This document shows positions 2,436 through 14,800 of a DNA stretch of 21,771 nucleotides, piece after piece. Source of the DNA: Bacteroidota bacterium. Lineage in GTDB: Bacteria; Bacteroidota; Ignavibacteria; UBA10030; UBA8401. A program made the translations under genes and the position numbers. Below the pieces are notes generated by a model. It was not told the origin of the DNA. It saw nothing but the letters and a program-made list of their open reading frames with translations, and did no database searches. The first letter of the stretch is position 1. Each line of letters opens with the position of its first letter. The stretch covers positions 1 to 21,771 of the forward strand of contig DMPG01000111.1 in NCBI GenBank assembly GCA_003456055.1, in the 5' to 3' direction.

Positions 2436-2846
2436 CTATGCCACAGATTCACAGATTAAAATATTTTTAAAAATAACTCTTTTGAATTTTAACGACGACT
2501 CTCCAAAGTTAACCAGTAAACCAACTTTACAGTTCGATATTGCAAGATAATTTATCATCTGATTATAATGATCTTCTATCAAATTTTTTTGCGCTTTCAC
2601 TTCAAGAATTATGGAGCCAAAAACAATAAAATCTGCAAAAAACTTATGCGGAAGAATTATGTCTTTATATTGTATTGAGTATTCTTTCTCGCGTTCAAAA
2701 ACAATTGCTTTTGTTTTGAATTCATATTCAAGCGCATCTTTATAAACAATCTCAAAAAGTCCTTTTCCTAATATTCTATGAATTTCCATACAAATTCCAA
2801 TTATTGTATGTGTTTCTACTTTTAAAGGAAAATGCTCTTCAATCAT
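2436..2846 (-). CDS. GxxExxY-family protein (PD-(D/E)xK-like)
   Basis: A 136-residue protein of the GxxExxY family, which belongs to the PD-(D/E)xK nuclease-like superfamily; its biological role is not established. The name motif is visible as GLFEIVY (G29, E32, Y35). Candidate nuclease-core residues are D72 in FADFIV, E82 and K84 in LEVKA, and a QMINYL segment (Q96-L101) resembling the superfamily's later Q/Y motif. All expected core residues are present, so it may be catalytically competent. The ATG at 2846 is preceded by GGAAGGA (2851-2857). The last five codons (CESVA) and the start of the reading frame's flank are formed by, or abut, 20-bp inverted repeats, making the gene look like cargo of a small element inserted in an otherwise metabolic gene set. 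Codon use is more AT-rich than its neighbours. Confidence 0.88.
   Translation of the reverse strand: MIEEHFPLKVETHTIIGICMEIHRILGKGLFEIVYKDALEYEFKTKAIVFEREKEYSIQYKDIILPHKFFADFIVFGSIILEVKAQKNLIEDHYNQMINYLAISNCKVGLLVNFGESSLKFKRVIFKNILICESVA
2439..2458 (+). repeat. left arm of inverted repeat (TGCCACAGATTCACAGATTA)
   Basis: Twenty bases exactly complementary to 2860-2879. Internally it is a tandem of two CACAGATT octamers (2442-2449... offset by one base from the arm start, 2443-2458). It overlaps the end of the GxxExxY gene, encoding residues CESVA on the minus strand. Confidence 0.9.
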
Positions 2847-2859
2847 TATTTCCTTCCAA

Positions 2860-2879
2860 TAATCTGTGAATCTGTGGCA
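2860..2879 (-). repeat. right arm of inverted repeat
   Basis: Exact reverse complement of 2439-2458. It lies between the stop of the outer-membrane barrel gene (6 nt away) and the ribosome binding site of the GxxExxY gene. With the two arms ~400 nt apart, a stem could form only in single-stranded DNA or in a full-length transcript. Confidence 0.9.
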
Positions 2880-2885
2880 ATAAGT

Positions 2886-4235
2886 TTACAACGCAAATAC
2901 GAATGACACTTTTGGTGTGATCCGTTTTTGTGGTTTATAACCGGTAATATTTCCATCGGTGTCTTTCACTGGTGCAAATGTCCATGTGTATAATGTTGAA
3001 ACGATCATGAATGGATACGGTTTATATCCGACTTCTGCATACAATAATGACCGCTCATCAAGGGTAAAGACATCTTTGTTGTTTCGAATATTTCGTTTGT
3101 CATATCCCGCACTGACCATTACAACAGGAATCTTGTCTCCGGTATTTGTTCCGAGATGCATAATTCCACTGGTCGGATTAAGATCGAGTTTTTGATACGA
3201 TCCTTCAACCTGAATTGTGCCGAGCACATCCACTAACAGACTTCCAAAGTATCCCGGTCCCTGAGAGATTGTTTTTGCTAACGTTTTTGCTTTGCTGTGG
3301 AAATTTCCAGGCGTGGATTGATACCGTTCCAATTCATAGAATGCATCAAAATATGCCGGGATGAACTGGTCAGACTCTCCGAATCGGCGTTCAAATTTCG
3401 AGAACATTTTTACGACACCAAGAAAAGAAAAGTTTGCTTCAAGCCCGGTTGCAAATCCATGTCCGTAATTCAATACTTTCGCATAATCAAGATAATACGT
3501 CAGATCGGCGATCGACGATCGAAGCAACGGCAGACCAAGATCCACACCAACAACTGTCATCGTTCCCGAATTTGCTGCCGATGTATCGACACCTGTAATA
3601 ACAAGTGATGTATCGCGCGAATCACCTCGAACATCACTTGCAACGGTTGCTCCAATTTCAAGATTTCCAAGAACAGGAATATCTTTTGCCGGGGTGAATT
3701 GCAGCGGACGGGTGTATCCTCGCATCCCTAACACACTTGCTCCAGCAAAATCGCCGTACACAGTCTCTAATCCCCATTTACCAAAATCAATATCAAGCTC
3801 TGTTCCGATTTTTCTATTGTCAAAGCTCGGACTGTTCCTGTAATTATAGAGTATAAAGCCATGTCCAAGTTTTGAGTAATCCAGAGCTCCAAGACGGATA
3901 TAGAATTCATCCCCTTTGCTTCCATACCGCAAATATCGGATGATACGGATATAATCGTACGTTTCATCAAAATCTTCTTTTCGAATCTTTTGATCTTTGC
4001 TGCTGATGTTTAGATTCAGATCAAGCCCGATACCGAATTTTCCGAATGCAATTTCGGGCGCAAGAGAAACAAGATAATATGCTTCTCCGTCGATCCACGT
4101 CATACCAACGCCCCCTTTTATAACACCTTCCGTACCGCCTCCTTTTGCAGCCGCAGCGGCGGATTTACTTTGAGCAACCAATGACAATGAACCAATGAAC
4201 ATTGAAGTAATGATAATTACAAATATTTTTTTCAT
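2886..4235 (-). CDS. putative outer-membrane beta-barrel protein
   Basis: A 449-residue exported protein that I do not recognise as a named family. A clear signal peptide (MKKIFVIIITSMFIGSLSLVA, cleavage likely after A21) is followed by a short low-complexity AAAAAKGGG stretch and then alternating amphipathic beta segments rich in Y/F/G, such as GKFGIGLDLNLNI and GFATGLEANFSFLGVVKMFSKFERRF. It ends in a strand (PKVSFVFAL) of the kind used by barrel assembly. This supports a porin-like or barrel protein in the outer membrane. The reading frame is open up to an ATG at 4334 inside spmB, but the ATG at 4235 is preferred because it gives a signal peptide and has AGGAAA (4240-4245) upstream. It starts 16 nt after the spmB stop, so it is likely in the spmAB operon. 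What it transports is unknown. Confidence 0.75.
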   Translation of the reverse strand: MKKIFVIIITSMFIGSLSLVAQSKSAAAAAKGGGTEGVIKGGVGMTWIDGEAYYLVSLAPEIAFGKFGIGLDLNLNISSKDQKIRKEDFDETYDYIRIIRYLRYGSKGDEFYIRLGALDYSKLGHGFILYNYRNSPSFDNRKIGTELDIDFGKWGLETVYGDFAGASVLGMRGYTRPLQFTPAKDIPVLGNLEIGATVASDVRGDSRDTSLVITGVDTSAANSGTMTVVGVDLGLPLLRSSIADLTYYLDYAKVLNYGHGFATGLEANFSFLGVVKMFSKFERRFGESDQFIPAYFDAFYELERYQSTPGNFHSKAKTLAKTISQGPGYFGSLLVDVLGTIQVEGSYQKLDLNPTSGIMHLGTNTGDKIPVVMVSAGYDKRNIRNNKDVFTLDERSLLYAEVGYKPYPFMIVSTLYTWTFAPVKDTDGNITGYKPQKRITPKVSFVFAL

Positions 4236-4251
4236 GATTTTCCTGTGAAGA

Positions 4252-4800
4252 TTAAATGCCGAACAAAATACGGGTGATAAACACCGCGCCGAGCATCCCA
4301 AAAAAATCGGCGATAAGACCGGCTGGTAATGCATGACGCGTATTTTTTATTCCAACAGAACCGAAATAGACAGCAAGAATATAGAACGTTGTTTCACTGC
4401 TTCCGTACATTGTTGAAGCAAGAACGCCGATAAACGAATCAACACCGTTTGTTTTCATCAATTCCGTCATCAAACCCATTGAACCGCTGCCGGAGAGCGG
4501 ACGAAGCAGCCCCAACGGAAGAACTTCCGCCGGCATACCAATAAGATTTGTAATCGGTGAAAGGATAAGAACAACTACATCCATTGCGCCGCTAACTCGA
4601 AAGATACCGATGGCAAACAACATTGCAACAAGAAACGGAATGATGCGCACCGCCGTATTGAATCCATCTTTTGCTCCTTCAACAAATACTTCATACACTT
4701 TTACTTTTTTGATCACTCCCCATCCAAGAAAAACGACGATGAAGATCGGGATTGCAAGCGCAGAGATAATGTTTATAGCAGAACGGAAGATCTCAACCAT
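4252..4800 (-). CDS. spmB: spore maturation protein B-like membrane protein
   Basis: A 182-residue inner-membrane protein of the nucleoside-recognition (Gate) domain family, homologous to Bacillus SpmB, which with SpmA contributes to spore core dehydration. Conserved blocks are FVEGAKDGF (39-47), GMPAEVLPLGLLRPLSGSGS (88-107) and GSSETTFYILAVYFGSVG (133-150) followed by KNTRHALPAGL. Several hydrophobic helices span the length, and the size is normal for the family. It overlaps spmA by 8 nt and has a near-perfect Shine-Dalgarno inside the end of spmA, indicating coupled translation. The function outside spore formers is unknown; a transport role is an inference from the Gate domain and from the neighbouring transport and catabolic genes. 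Confidence 0.93.
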   Translation of the reverse strand: MVEIFRSAINIISALAIPIFIVVFLGWGVIKKVKVYEVFVEGAKDGFNTAVRIIPFLVAMLFAIGIFRVSGAMDVVVLILSPITNLIGMPAEVLPLGLLRPLSGSGSMGLMTELMKTNGVDSFIGVLASTMYGSSETTFYILAVYFGSVGIKNTRHALPAGLIADFFGMLGAVFITRILFGI

Positions 4801-5941: not shown

Positions 5942-8900
5942 CTATTTGACTAACATCATCTTTTTTACCTCAGTAAACTTATCTGACGTTAGTTTATAAA
6001 TGTACATTCCGCTAGAAAGTTTGGATGCATCGAACTCTACTTGATAACGACCTGTTTCCTTGAAGTCGTTAATAAGAGTTGCCACTTCTTTTCCAAGAAC
6101 ATCATACACTTTCAACACAACATTTCCTGATTTTGGCAAAGCGTAGTTAATCGTTGTTGTAGGATTAAATGGATTGGGATAGTTTTGTTCAAGCGAATAT
6201 GAAGTAATGACATTACTTCCCTGATAACCAATCGCTACCCGATTTGAACCTCTTTTTCCTAAAAACACTTCAGTATCGTATCGTTCTGCTATTGAGTAAT
6301 GAACACTATCTGACGATGAGACTTTTAATCGTAGTTTCACCACTCTCGATCCGATTCCGGATGTGTTTACTTGATACCCGATATTGTCATATTGAAAAAC
6401 GTTATTCTCAGTATATTCGATATCATCGTAGGTACCAATTACTTGTTCGGTTTGGGCATCAATTAATTCTACGTTAAATCGTACAGTATTTCCATTTTGT
6501 AATGCTGCTGTTGCAGCAAGTGAATCTGTTATACCATACCGTACACCGTAAAGGAAGTTTGACTGACCGGTTAAATTAAAGTTTTCGGTTGTTAAATATT
6601 GATTGACTATTGGAAGAGAATCAATGTTTGTCGTGTCAGGAATAGTTTTAAATTTAATAAGTTTCCCGTCAACTAATATATCGCCAAATGTAAAGTAAAA
6701 CTGTGCACTGTCTTTTGTTATGATCCCTTCTCGGCCAGAATAGATCGGTTGCGATTGTTGTTTTGATTGGATCGGAAGCAAATCTTTTGACAGTACAAAT
6801 TTATTTGGACTTCCTTCGGTAAGGAAATATCCGTACATCGTTCCAAATGATTCTCCATTAGTTACCTGTATATCTTTACTGCCGGTGATAGCTGTTCCCG
6901 ATGGCTGAACGAATGTATTAATCTCGCTAAAACTAATGCTTCTCATATATTTTGCTGATGCACCATTGTTTTCCGTCCAACCGATAACATAATTCTGATC
7001 GTCGGTTCCAACCGTGTATTTATTAAAACTTACGCTTCCAACATTATTTCCCCACGACCAAAAATATGTAGGATTTGATGGATCGGTCAATATAGTATTA
7101 TAAATCCATTCACCTTCTTCGATTGCAGATTTTGCCAAACCTTCTTCCGAAGGTTCCCATCGTCTTCCATACCACGCCAAACGAGCACCGTCATCAAACG
7201 AAATTATTGAAGGCTGATAGTTTGATGAATAACCGCTTGTGGAAGAAACATTTGTTGATGTTCCAAGAGCTTCAAAATTTCCATTAACACGTTGTTGTAG
7301 TTGGCGATAGTAGATATGTGAGCCGCTTTGAAATGCTAAATGAAAATGATAGAAGCCATCATAAGGATAAAAAGTAGTATTTTCAGCAGCAAGTGTTGGA
7401 TTGATTGCATTGGCAGCCACACCGGCATCGTCTGTAAGTTGTACCGTATTTATTTTCCAGACAAAAACCCCATTTTCGTATTGTCCAAATCGATAAAATA
7501 ATCCGGCACTTCCTTGTTTCCACACAATTAATATTTTACCGTTCTGTGTAGATGCAACAACCGGAGAGCAATTATTGGAATATGTTGGAATGTCTAAAGA
7601 AATGTCAACTATTGTTACAGTTTCGTTTTCATCAATGATACTCAATTTAAGATCAGTATTATTGTTTCCATTCTTTTGCTGATAAACCAGTAATAACTTA
7701 TCACCATAGATGGCAGCCGACGGATTGCTTGCTTCTGTTGATGACAAATTACTTACATATTGTAGTGCCCAATCGCTCCCTCCGCTTACTTTCCGCTCTA
7801 ACCATATTTCTCCCATTGATTCGTAAGCGCTATACATGTCTCCGTTCACTTTACGAATAATTTTTCTTTGACCGTTGCTTTTAATAGCAAGTGCATTGTT
7901 GGTTGCTTGGATCGCTTTGTAATTTCCAACAAGATTTATATTGCTGGTAACAACCAAACCGCGAGATTGAGAACTTACACCATCGCTCCAATTCATAAAG
8001 TTCCAGTTAACACCAAGCGTACCGTTTGAGACGGTGGAGTTAATGATTCTGGTAAAATCTTTGTAGTCATAATCATCAAATGTTACTCCGGTTGTTGTAT
8101 TTCCATCAATTGTATAAGAAACCGTACCACCGCTGTAACTTCCTTCCAACAGATTGGAGAGTTGCACATGCTGGGCTTGAGGAAATTTTGCTTTATATCT
8201 TAAATCACCATCAACTGTTATTTGAATTCTTCGAGGTCCAATATCACTTTGTGGTGCAGTCTCTTCTCCTTTGAACCAATTCTTGTATTTATTCATTCCG
8301 TTTGTTTCTGTAAGGTATTGCTGAGGTGTTTGAAGTTGATGAGTTTCTGTTACTCCCCACCAAAATGTTTTAGGAGATTGAAATGAAGATGGGGTTCCGC
8401 TTACAACTTCTTCAATAAAACCAACGTCATCCTTTTGATTTACATCATTATACACCTTAATCTGTCGCGGTCCGGAAAATGTATAATAAAAAATGGCTTC
8501 ACCTTCATTTGTAGTAAATGTTGGGATAGCGTTTATAAAAGAAGAAGTAATAGCGTCGGGTAATATTTTTGTTCCCGAGTTCAGTTCAACTTCCGGCATT
8601 TTACTTGCAAACTGGCTTTCACTAAGACTGATACCAAAGGCACTAAGATTTACAGATGTCGCCTTAAAAAATAATTTGTAACCTAATTCCATCTGCCGTA
8701 AAATAATATCGCCGGTTATTGTAACACTTCCATGTATCGGTTGTTGTTCGTTACCAGGAAGCCAATCTTGCAAAACTTCAACAAATGTAGCCGACGCACT
8801 AATTGTTGCTTTTTTATCAACAATAAAATGAATTGTTGCTCCGTCAAGGTTTAGAAAGTAACCTTTCGTAGCAAACGTCGTTTTATAGTCTCCAAAATTT

Positions 8901-11896: not shown

Positions 11897-14800
11897 TTAT
11901 TTTACTAACATCATCTTCTTTACCTCGCTGAATGTATCTGATGTTAGTTTATAAATATAGATGCCGCTGGAAAGATTTGAAGCATCAAATTCTACAGAGA
12001 ACCGTCCGGATTCTTTGTAACTATTGACCAATGTAGCTACCTCTTTCCCTAGAACATCATATACTTTCAACATCACATATTCTGCTTTCGGTAATGTGTA
12101 ACTGATCGTAGTCGATGGGTTGAAAGGATTTGGAAAATTTTGAATCAATCCAAATTCATTTGCACCCAACGTACCTCTATATGATATTTTTTCTGCTTTA
12201 CGTTCTTGTTTCCCTAATATTGTCGCTTCTGTTGATTGTCTGTCTGTTACATTATAGACAGGATCAAGTCCATTGTGAGAAACCACTAGACGGAGTTGAA
12301 CGGTTCTGTTTCCAATACCATCAACATTAACCTGATATCCAAGATTATCATATTGTGTCGGATTTAAGGCATTAAAAACAATATTATCATACGAACCAAT
12401 TACTTCTTTTGTTTGTGCATCGATTAATTCTACCAAGTATGACACTGAACCATTTGAACCTAAAAGATTTATTGCCGAAGTCGAATCTGTTGTTCCATAT
12501 TGTACGCTAAAGAACAATTGAGATGAATTGGAAATTGCAAATGGTTTTGTCGTAAGAACGTTATTCAGGTTTGCCGCATTAAAGACAGAAATCGTATCCG
12601 GAAATTCAACAAACGCAATTGGTTCTCCGTTTACCATTACATCGCCAAGAACGAAATAAAACTGCGCATCATCTTGAGCGATCACCCCTGTTCTCCCGTT
12701 TGCAATTCCGTTGCTTTGAGATTTCGCGAAACCGTACTGAGCCAGTCCTACTGAGAAGCGATATGGTGTTTGATTGATATTCAAACCTGCCACATAAAAT
12801 GAATTTGAAGAAAGTCCTTCCGAAACTTGAACTGTTCCTCCGCTAACATTGCTCATTGTGCGAATTGTAGGAGAATTTAATATGGTATTGTCTTTATTGT
12901 AAATTGTTGTTCCTGCTTGACTCCAAGCAATAAGATAACCGACATTTGAACGATTTAACTGTGTGCTTGTTACAAGATTTCCAAAACTCCAGAAGTAATA
13001 ATAATCAGCAGCCTTAAAGATAGATACATTTTCTTGTATATCAGGATCATATGGATTTAAACGTTGACCATTCCAACTTAACCGAGCTATATCATCATTT
13101 AAGACAATGATCGAGGGAAGATAATTCCATGTGTATCCACTGCCGGTTGACAGAATAGACAGCGTGCCGGAAGTAATTCCACCGGTTTGCACCAACAACT
13201 GTTTATACATCACATTTGAATATGTGGCTGCTTTTTGCTCGTACGCAATGTGAAAAAGATTTGTTATACCGGATTGGCCCGCAGGACCGCTGGCTACTAC
13301 TGCAGGAGTAACTGAATTTGAATTTCCAAAATAACCGCTGTTTCCTGCACCGGAATAAGCAGTTAATGTTGATGAAGTAACATTGTACGTTTTGTAATAG
13401 ATTCTATTTTCTTGCCAAACAACCGCAAGCAAACCTCCACTTGTGCTGCTCACGGTTGGATTGGTTGGATAAGTATTTGCAACACTTGTTGCAATTATTG
13501 CCGTTGCTTGCTCTGTTAAATTTCCGCCGCTATAAAGATAGTTCTTTACCCGAATTTGAGCATTGCCTCCGTTATTTTCTTGATACACAAGAATAATATT
13601 ATTTCCGTAAACACACGCCGCAGGTAATTTTCCATTGCTTGAGGTAAGCGAAGTAGTTGTTTGCCACGTTGTTCCTCCGTTTGTGCTTCGTTCATACCAA
13701 ATCTTATCTAACGATTGATAAAAAATATGGAGTGTTCCATCGCTTGTCCGCACAATCTTTCGTTGTCCAGAATTTGTAAAGTTGTAATTGTAGTTGGACA
13801 TTAGTTGTCCTTTGAGATTTGAGGTAACCGAAGTATTACTCTGATCAAATCGAATTTTCGTTCGATGCATGCTTGGCGTTTCAAATAACGCAGAACCTTG
13901 GGTTATCGACCAATTCGATAACATATACGTTGATTTTCCATCGATTGAAGTTGGTGCTTCAATTTCATAAAAAGGGTTTACGGGGTTATCATAATCGATT
14001 CCTAAAAATACTCCGCTGTCACTGGCGGTTGCATTATAAATTCCTGGAGGCTTAACGGGTGTCTGGTAAGCAAAAAAACTATTCGGCTGCGAACCATTTG
14101 CATCTGCAACATACCATGGATCACGAATGCTTATTGATTTAGCAAATCCATCTATCAATGTTGAGAGGGTAACCGGTGTGACCCCAACGAAGTTTGCTCT
14201 TCGTGTTGTTGGCACAGTTCCTACAGGATAGTTTTCTTTTAATCGAAATTGATTTAAAGATTCGTCCCAATTATTGTTTTTATTATTTCCTTGTAATCGT
14301 TCATGGTTTGTTTTAACTGAATAGGTCGTTCCCGAGAATAGTTTAACAGTTTCATTTGAATTAACAATAATGTTGTTCACTCCTAATGAAGTACCTGAAA
14401 TTACAGAAGTGCCGATTTTATTTTGAAAAGTAATTGAGGTTCCCGTTAATAAATTTGACATTCTATTTTCAATAGCCTCATGCATTCTTCCAATTTGTTG
14501 GTTGGAAAAATGTTCCCCACATTCTTTTACATAAGCCATTATATTTCGGGTGTCTGGCACGTAAAACTGATTACACTCATCGCGTGGGGGCGACGGAGGA
14601 TAAGGTGGATCGTATTCACAATTTGAATTAACTTTATCAATTAGGTTTGGATCAGCAGGCGTATCACATAATAAATCACCCGCTTCTGTACAATTTGGAG
14701 GACATGAACCATCATCACCTACTATTCGAGTTACCTTTTCATAACCAAATATTGTTTCATGTGGATGATACAAATTAAAACAATGTCCAATTTCATGTGC

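Follow-up and report, generated by a model that had tools for sequence, protein, structure and literature searches.

REPIN-RAYT systems are described as pairs of short inverted repeats that form hairpins and are accompanied by a specific enzyme gene (PMC3116915; PMC8266576). Here we analyzed a 21,771-nt stretch of DNA from a Bacteroidota bacterium (GCA_003456055.1, contig DMPG01000111.1, positions 1 to 21,771), referred to as the window, in which a single gene of the GxxExxY family is enclosed by 20-bp inverted repeats, or arms. Our best reading is that this unit represents a REPIN-RAYT-like system, with an unrelated nuclease replacing the HUH transposase. We put at roughly 60% the probability of this reading, in which the unit belongs to a repeat-enzyme system that couples a small Cas4-like PD-(D/E)XK protein with a short tandem repeat of its own. 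The arrangement resembles a genomic parasite, or a system for copying repeats, of a kind not yet described. The features of the unit, in window coordinates, are the following (ORF, open reading frame).

2439..2458, plus strand: left inverted arm, TGCCACAGATTCACAGATTA, two CACAGATT octamers with GCCAC near the outer end; it encodes the last codons of the ORF.
2860..2879, minus strand: right inverted arm, matching the left one exactly as its reverse complement.
2436..2846, minus strand: GxxExxY / PD-(D/E)XK nuclease-like gene, 136 aa, matching TIGR04256 over residues 12-125, with D72, E82, K84, Q96 and Y100.
2439..2468, minus strand: codons 127-136, a probable read-through tail into the left arm, judged by comparison with near-identical proteins.
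2850..2857, minus strand: Shine-Dalgarno-like GGAAGGAA before the ATG, found by eye.
2439..2879, no strand: the whole unit (441 bp), flanked by a proline dehydrogenase gene and a 482-aa ORF, absent at this spot in genome G001.

As the preliminary description of this stretch had it, the two arms are exact reverse complements, each consisting of two octamers in direct tandem. This pair (I9) is the sole perfect one among the 25 longest inverted repeats listed (the best 25 of 151 in the window), and the remaining 24 are 70-86% complementary and more than 1 kb apart in all but three cases. The same description held that the unit contains only a ribosome site and a nuclease-like gene with D72, E82, K84 and Q96, which stands with one refinement: the reading frame passes through the left arm, so that its last residues (ICESVA) are encoded by the arm. 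A protein with identity to the window protein over 126 aa terminates at residue 126, and a second relative, 99% identical, keeps the 136-aa form. No transposase was found in the unit, in agreement with the earlier account; the wider genomes were not searched for transposases.

The window protein scores above the curated cut-offs of TIGR04256 (132 bits, cut-off 35) and PF13366 (PDDEXK_3; 117.6 bits, cut-off 22). Among 58 aligned sequences, the window protein included, E82, K84 and Y100 are invariant and D72 is at least 90% conserved; Q96 falls outside the columns listed at 90% or above, and is invariant in a diverse set of six. The best structural match of the AlphaFold2 model (predicted local distance difference test, pLDDT, 89.2) is Cas4, and the predicted fold together with the catalytic residues places the protein among PD-(D/E)XK nucleases of the GxxExxY type. 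Sequence searches with the window protein gave no Cas4 profile match at E up to 1, no solved structure under E 0.2 and no match in PHROGs. Weak matches were obtained for relatives, namely to Cas4 models for the proteins of loci L160 and L158 (E 0.0042 and 0.0047) and to PHROGs for three relatives. A known defence system was rejected, as the window protein has no match among the PADLOC models at E up to 1, and three relatives have weak matches only (Cas4; RTasPDDEXK at E 0.011).

To compare loci, named genomes were scanned with the aligned sequences of the window protein and two relatives, which gave 155 loci, of which the best 80 were kept. Inverted flanking arms reach a score of at least 16 in 65 of the 80 loci, compared with 5 of 4,565 shifted control windows at the same loci (at least 13 in 68 of the 80 vs. 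20 of the 4,565). Most of these arms have GCCAC as their outer end. Other GxxExxY genes are thus accompanied by similar repeats, as the preliminary description had mentioned, more often than by chance, and these repeats are further linked to gene presence, as given below. The 80 loci are not independent: of the 44 Flavobacterium-type loci, 43 form one linked cluster with the same two neighbours, one of which we take from its sequence to be MiaB. Because of this shared site, the other 36 loci were tallied separately; 26 of them reach 16, L090 with arms of another kind among them. In eight Flavobacterium genomes, which have two to eight family matches each, some partial, 22 of the 28 loci examined have arms of score at least 15, and the letters differ between genes within a genome. 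The host genome (G000; 2.94 Mb, 80% complete) has GxxExxY matches on seven contigs (C31, C295, C222, C242, C400, C308 and C118), some of them with stops, frame-shifted or partial. Five of the six host copies tested score at least 16, with different letters in each, and one scores 9.5. One arm common to all GxxExxY genes was rejected, the letters differing gene by gene, and a chance origin of arms and repeats was rejected by the shifted windows and by reversed-pattern controls.

Each gene has its own repeat. Across 74 loci from 16 genomes, each with several GxxExxY genes, the median score of a gene's own arm pair is 19, vs. 8.5 for cross pairs within the same genome, and in 68 loci, where 16 are expected, no partner is better than the gene's own right arm. 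This set comprises 40 places from seven genomes (other listed places, some at contig ends, were left out), 28 Flavobacterium loci, a further two from G064 and, of the seven in G000, four (among them the C31 copy, which carries an internal stop; C400, C308 and C118 were excluded as broken or partial). Among 112 elements picked for an arm score of at least 15 (L100-L152 excluded), arm similarity follows protein identity with a Mantel r of 0.61, the highest of 2,000 permutations being 0.07. For pairs without a detected common neighbour ORF, the arms match in 56 of 70 pairs at protein identity of at least 80%, in 58 of 102 at 70-80% and in 18 of 4,485 below 50%, with neighbours compared within at most 1.6 kb (about 400 bases for some loci), so some same-site pairs may remain. 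This co-variation supports the view that a GxxExxY protein may bind its own repeat. That the nuclease also cuts the repeat and so spreads it, which corresponds to the earlier suggestion of movement through the unit's own product, is something we infer.

At the common Flavobacterium site, the arms differ between species groups and, within a locus, the two mostly agree in type (the listing covers 42 of the 44 loci, and its rule missed some left arms that flank comparison shows), so the arms have been kept matched through time. One explanation for such arms is that, rather than marking the ends of a mobile element, they serve the host as operators or as binding sites of the nuclease, for example in autoregulation or in the processing of DNA at hairpins, and that dispersal is a by-product of hairpin repair. 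The gene being fixed at one site in 43 loci, with both arms changing together between species groups, would suit this, as would the conserved catalytic residues. Autoregulation, however, does not need gene-less palindromes, nesting or presence/absence of the unit, all of which are described below, and we regard a host function as quite improbable.

The repeats also occur without the gene, many of them as inverted pairs. Counted as units rather than as palindromes, matches to a pattern of two adjacent units number up to 151 per genome in an order-level sample of relatives (reversed control 0-4), and those to a second pattern number 12-252 in each of the eight Flavobacterium genomes (control 1-4 each). 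In G066, 24 of 57 matches pair into 12 gene-less inverted pairs, 29-139 bases apart. CCAC...GTGG was found at both ends in 17 of 18 sites chosen from the repeat matches, and L187 has no clear right end. Such palindromes are inverted doublets of short repeats that can form hairpins, as in REPIN-RAYT systems: folded as DNA, three of four are near-perfect (z -9.9, -8.4 and -7.7), and the fourth, L186, queried with a truncated left arm, has z -2.8. The gene-less palindromes of G063 (2 sites) and G066 (3 sites) are of the same type as the arms of genes L156 and L169 in the same genome. Among 13 palindromes fetched from G064, four are of the type of gene L164, seven are of the CACGAATT type and two have both.

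The abundance of these repeats goes along with the presence of the gene. In the order-level sample, 41 of 60 genomes, the host included, carry the family (up to 12 matches each) and contain 991 repeat matches (control 22); the 19 genomes without it contain 36 (control 6). In a phylum-level sample, 73 of 148 genomes have a family match over the cut-off, and these have 678 repeat matches (control 53), while the 75 without have 72 (control 51; p = 2e-13, genomes treated as independent as in all gene-presence tests, and G204, at E 8e-4 under the cut-off, scored as without the gene). After removal of genomes seen before, the values are 585 (control 48) in 67 genomes with the gene and 67 (control 50) in 73 without. 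Three phylum-sample genomes without the gene have at least 5 matches. The CGCAAAG repeat was followed in 61 genomes of one genus: it has 3 to 60 matches in all 8 genomes with a relative of its gene at 70% identity or more, and a median of 0 in the 53 without such a relative.

Several rows of repeats were observed in addition. Rows of CACGGATT-type palindromes lie on one or both sides of the gene in L125:2903-3721, L137 and L153:4277-4526, and a row of three gene-less copies (about 205-212 bp) and one gene was found in L091:494-1756. A dense row of CACAGATAACACAGAT-like units lies in G110 contig C46:166437-166976, in a genome without a family match. Separately, the unit proteins in two records labelled Methylococcaceae (L087) and Methylobacter (L089) are 89-90% identical to that of L082, a Bacteroidetes record; L089 has a neighbour gene in common with the Bacteroidales locus L083, so mis-binning of such records is possible.

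The neighbourhood of the unit was compared among relatives of the host. The two genes adjoining it in the window are the following.

1525-2427: proline dehydrogenase gene.
2886-4334: 482-aa ORF, partial match to the ImpL63 model.

In the host the full unit stands on one side of proline dehydrogenase. In G001, whose enzyme is 87% identical, there is no unit in the stretches seen on either side, and none was seen around the gene in G002, G003 and G006. Gene-less palindromes, degenerate in G005, occupy the host's site in G005 and G010, both of which carry a full unit on the opposite side; in G007 the start of a unit is found on that opposite side, where the contig ends. Rearranged copies were detected elsewhere. 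L094 contains, some 3 kb away from a full copy, a 156-bp version that retains both arms and the gene start (74% identity) and misses about 290 bp inside. In L200 one palindrome lies within the loop of another, and in L203 (1-501) two different palindromes are interleaved as A B A' B', an order that simple loop insertion does not explain. The internally deleted copy, the nested palindrome and the presence/absence beside proline dehydrogenase indicate that these elements probably move.

Ends and target sites were also considered. At the ends of 80 elements, as defined by motif, direct repeats of 2-6 nt are not in excess and lie within 1.5 s.d. (standard deviations) of shuffled pairs (12 vs. 9.3 at 2 nt, 4 vs. 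2.6 at 3 nt), in a test that would miss duplications at another boundary, leaves out L187, L200, L203 and part of the later candidates, and draws many elements from one Flavobacterium site. Inverted complementarity beyond the element ends is in excess (25 vs. 15.5 at 3 nt, 19 vs. 10.7 at 4 nt), so the palindromes may extend slightly past these ends. Miniature inverted-repeat transposable elements (MITEs) typically show inverted ends, gene-less derivatives and nested copies, and the unit might be such an element, mobilized in trans by an ordinary transposase after capturing the nuclease gene as a passenger. However, the repeat type tracks the GxxExxY protein locus by locus, target duplications are not in excess, and there is no transposase within the unit, the only place where one was sought; we regard a MITE origin as quite improbable.

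The idea of a minimal mobile element without a transposase, put forward in the preliminary description, is thus partly supported: the repeat-gene link is strong and mobility of the repeat is supported, but the gene-bearing unit can be stable, and it is the gene-less palindromes that look like the multiplying form. As to carriers, phage carriage was rejected for lack of a match in phage records, and plasmid carriage was rejected with eight records (25 kb to 1.6 Mb), all predicted non-mobilizable and under 60% identity. In viral contigs, 59 stretches match a pattern and none encodes a relative. A known RNA family was likewise rejected, with none at gathering score for the window and nine palindrome loci.

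A number of observations weigh against a repeat-enzyme pairing that spreads. To our knowledge, no PD-(D/E)XK nuclease has strand-joining chemistry. Fifteen of the 80 loci score under 16 and 19 of the 74 under 15 in the arm tests, and 43 of the 44 Flavobacterium-type loci retain the gene at a single site. A search of the host for the arm had been proposed as a check of the element, but the window's repeat has not multiplied there: the exact 16-mer CACAGATTCACAGATT occurs only at the two arms, with one single-arm copy at one mismatch. As there is no single common arm and the genes have private repeats, that check taken literally would have failed. The comparison of orthologous loci proposed at the same time did yield a site without the unit, in G001, but its intergenic sequence is too diverged to give exact ends. 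The cognate gene of the seven CACGAATT-type palindromes in G064 is uncertain, gene L185 having CACGAATT units in its arms with a loose match. CGCAAAG-type arms were seen beside the relative in 5 of the 8 genomes (two were missed by the test and one was unscored, among three loci of this comparison left unscored for arms). Finally, G021 of the order sample has 16 matches and no family match, and 5-65 CGCAAAG matches are present in 9 of the 53 genomes that lack a 70% relative, so orphan repeat populations exist.

Orphan populations would also be expected if the palindromes came first and spread otherwise, and GxxExxY were a homing endonuclease that cuts gene-less palindromes and inserts its gene into their loops. 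The PD-(D/E)XK class includes known homing endonucleases, the enzyme here is of the nuclease type, and the gene-less form equals the gene-bearing form with a short loop. On the other hand, genomes without the gene are near background in the phylum sample, though above it in the order sample; and the gene-less L094 copy retains gene remnants and is a deletion derivative, not a precursor. We consider a homing-type selfish gene unlikely.

Under the preferred reading of a nuclease paired with its own repeat, the protein would recognise the repeat, probably as a hairpin or cruciform, and would cut at or near its CCAC ends, and host repair or replication would then copy the palindrome to a new place. 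Gene-bearing copies would be the source and gene-less copies would be non-autonomous. In its widest form, which we hold only tentatively and at slightly less than an even chance, GxxExxY proteins would be the mobility enzymes of a widespread class of bacterial elements that lack both transposase and recombinase. A private repeat "address" would be read by a Cas4-like nuclease, which would cut hairpins of it; host repair would do the copying, and a genome could have several independent nuclease-repeat pairs, each with its own palindrome population.

Elsewhere in the window, two large ORFs have a common C-terminal stretch (5943-6187 and 11898-12142) with 73% DNA identity and an N(Y/F)PNPFNP motif, presumably that of type IX secretion sorting domains.

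The GxxExxY family is common (4,468 proteins match the window protein in a protein search, and it occurs in the 73 of 148 phylum genomes above), and in the text portions of the literature covered, only passing mentions of the family were found. Titles and abstract openings on repeats with PDDEXK nucleases, Flavobacterium MITEs, RAYTs and RAYT-independent repetitive extragenic palindromic sequences do not describe the GxxExxY-repeat pairing, which, with subscription journals thinly covered, is weak evidence of novelty. A search of papers for the arm sequences gave, judged by title, mostly ones with primers or comparable sequence lists, and none was of use. If the pairing holds, a family of unknown role gains a testable function and many unexplained intergenic palindromes get an owner. 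It would also provide a compact nuclease with a sequence preference that may differ between genes and could be deduced from the arms, and a second, independent solution to what REPIN-RAYT systems do.

In comparison with known systems, the window protein appears, from its model, to have the fold and D-ExK residues of Cas4 and the lambda-exonuclease/RecB-type PD-(D/E)XK nucleases. Its Q96...Y100 pair resembles the QxxxY motif, a feature of the lambda-exonuclease/RecB-type group. Unlike Cas4, which carries a four-cysteine cluster, its conserved part has only two cysteines and hence no such cluster, and GxxExxY is a stand-alone gene of about 125 codons with cognate repeats. Homing endonuclease genes are likewise single nuclease genes forming an apparently selfish unit, but the GxxExxY gene has private inverted repeats which are also present without the gene. 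Like MITEs, there are non-autonomous copies with inverted ends, at least one of them formed by internal deletion (L094); unlike them, target duplication was not detected and the unit, as far as the search extended, has no transposase.

The closest likeness is to REPIN-RAYT systems. RAYT genes are often kept vertically, as the enzyme gene often is here, and in both the repeat type goes with the enzyme type, with the orphan populations as exceptions in the present case. The inverted pairs of short repeats, their hairpins, their spread between genes and the specific enzyme gene nearby also agree with the published accounts (PMC3116915; PMC8266576). The differences lie in the arms, which are made of tandem units about 8-10 nt long and often carry GCCAC at their outer end, and in the enzyme, which belongs to PD-(D/E)XK/GxxExxY instead of the HUH tyrosine transposases; no HUH (Y1) transposase was found in the unit, whose sole gene is PF13366/TIGR04256, and RAYT genes elsewhere in the genomes were not searched for. 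Because the enzyme is unrelated and the RAYT-defining HUH transposase is lacking, the GxxExxY unit would work like a REPIN-RAYT system without being a member of that group.
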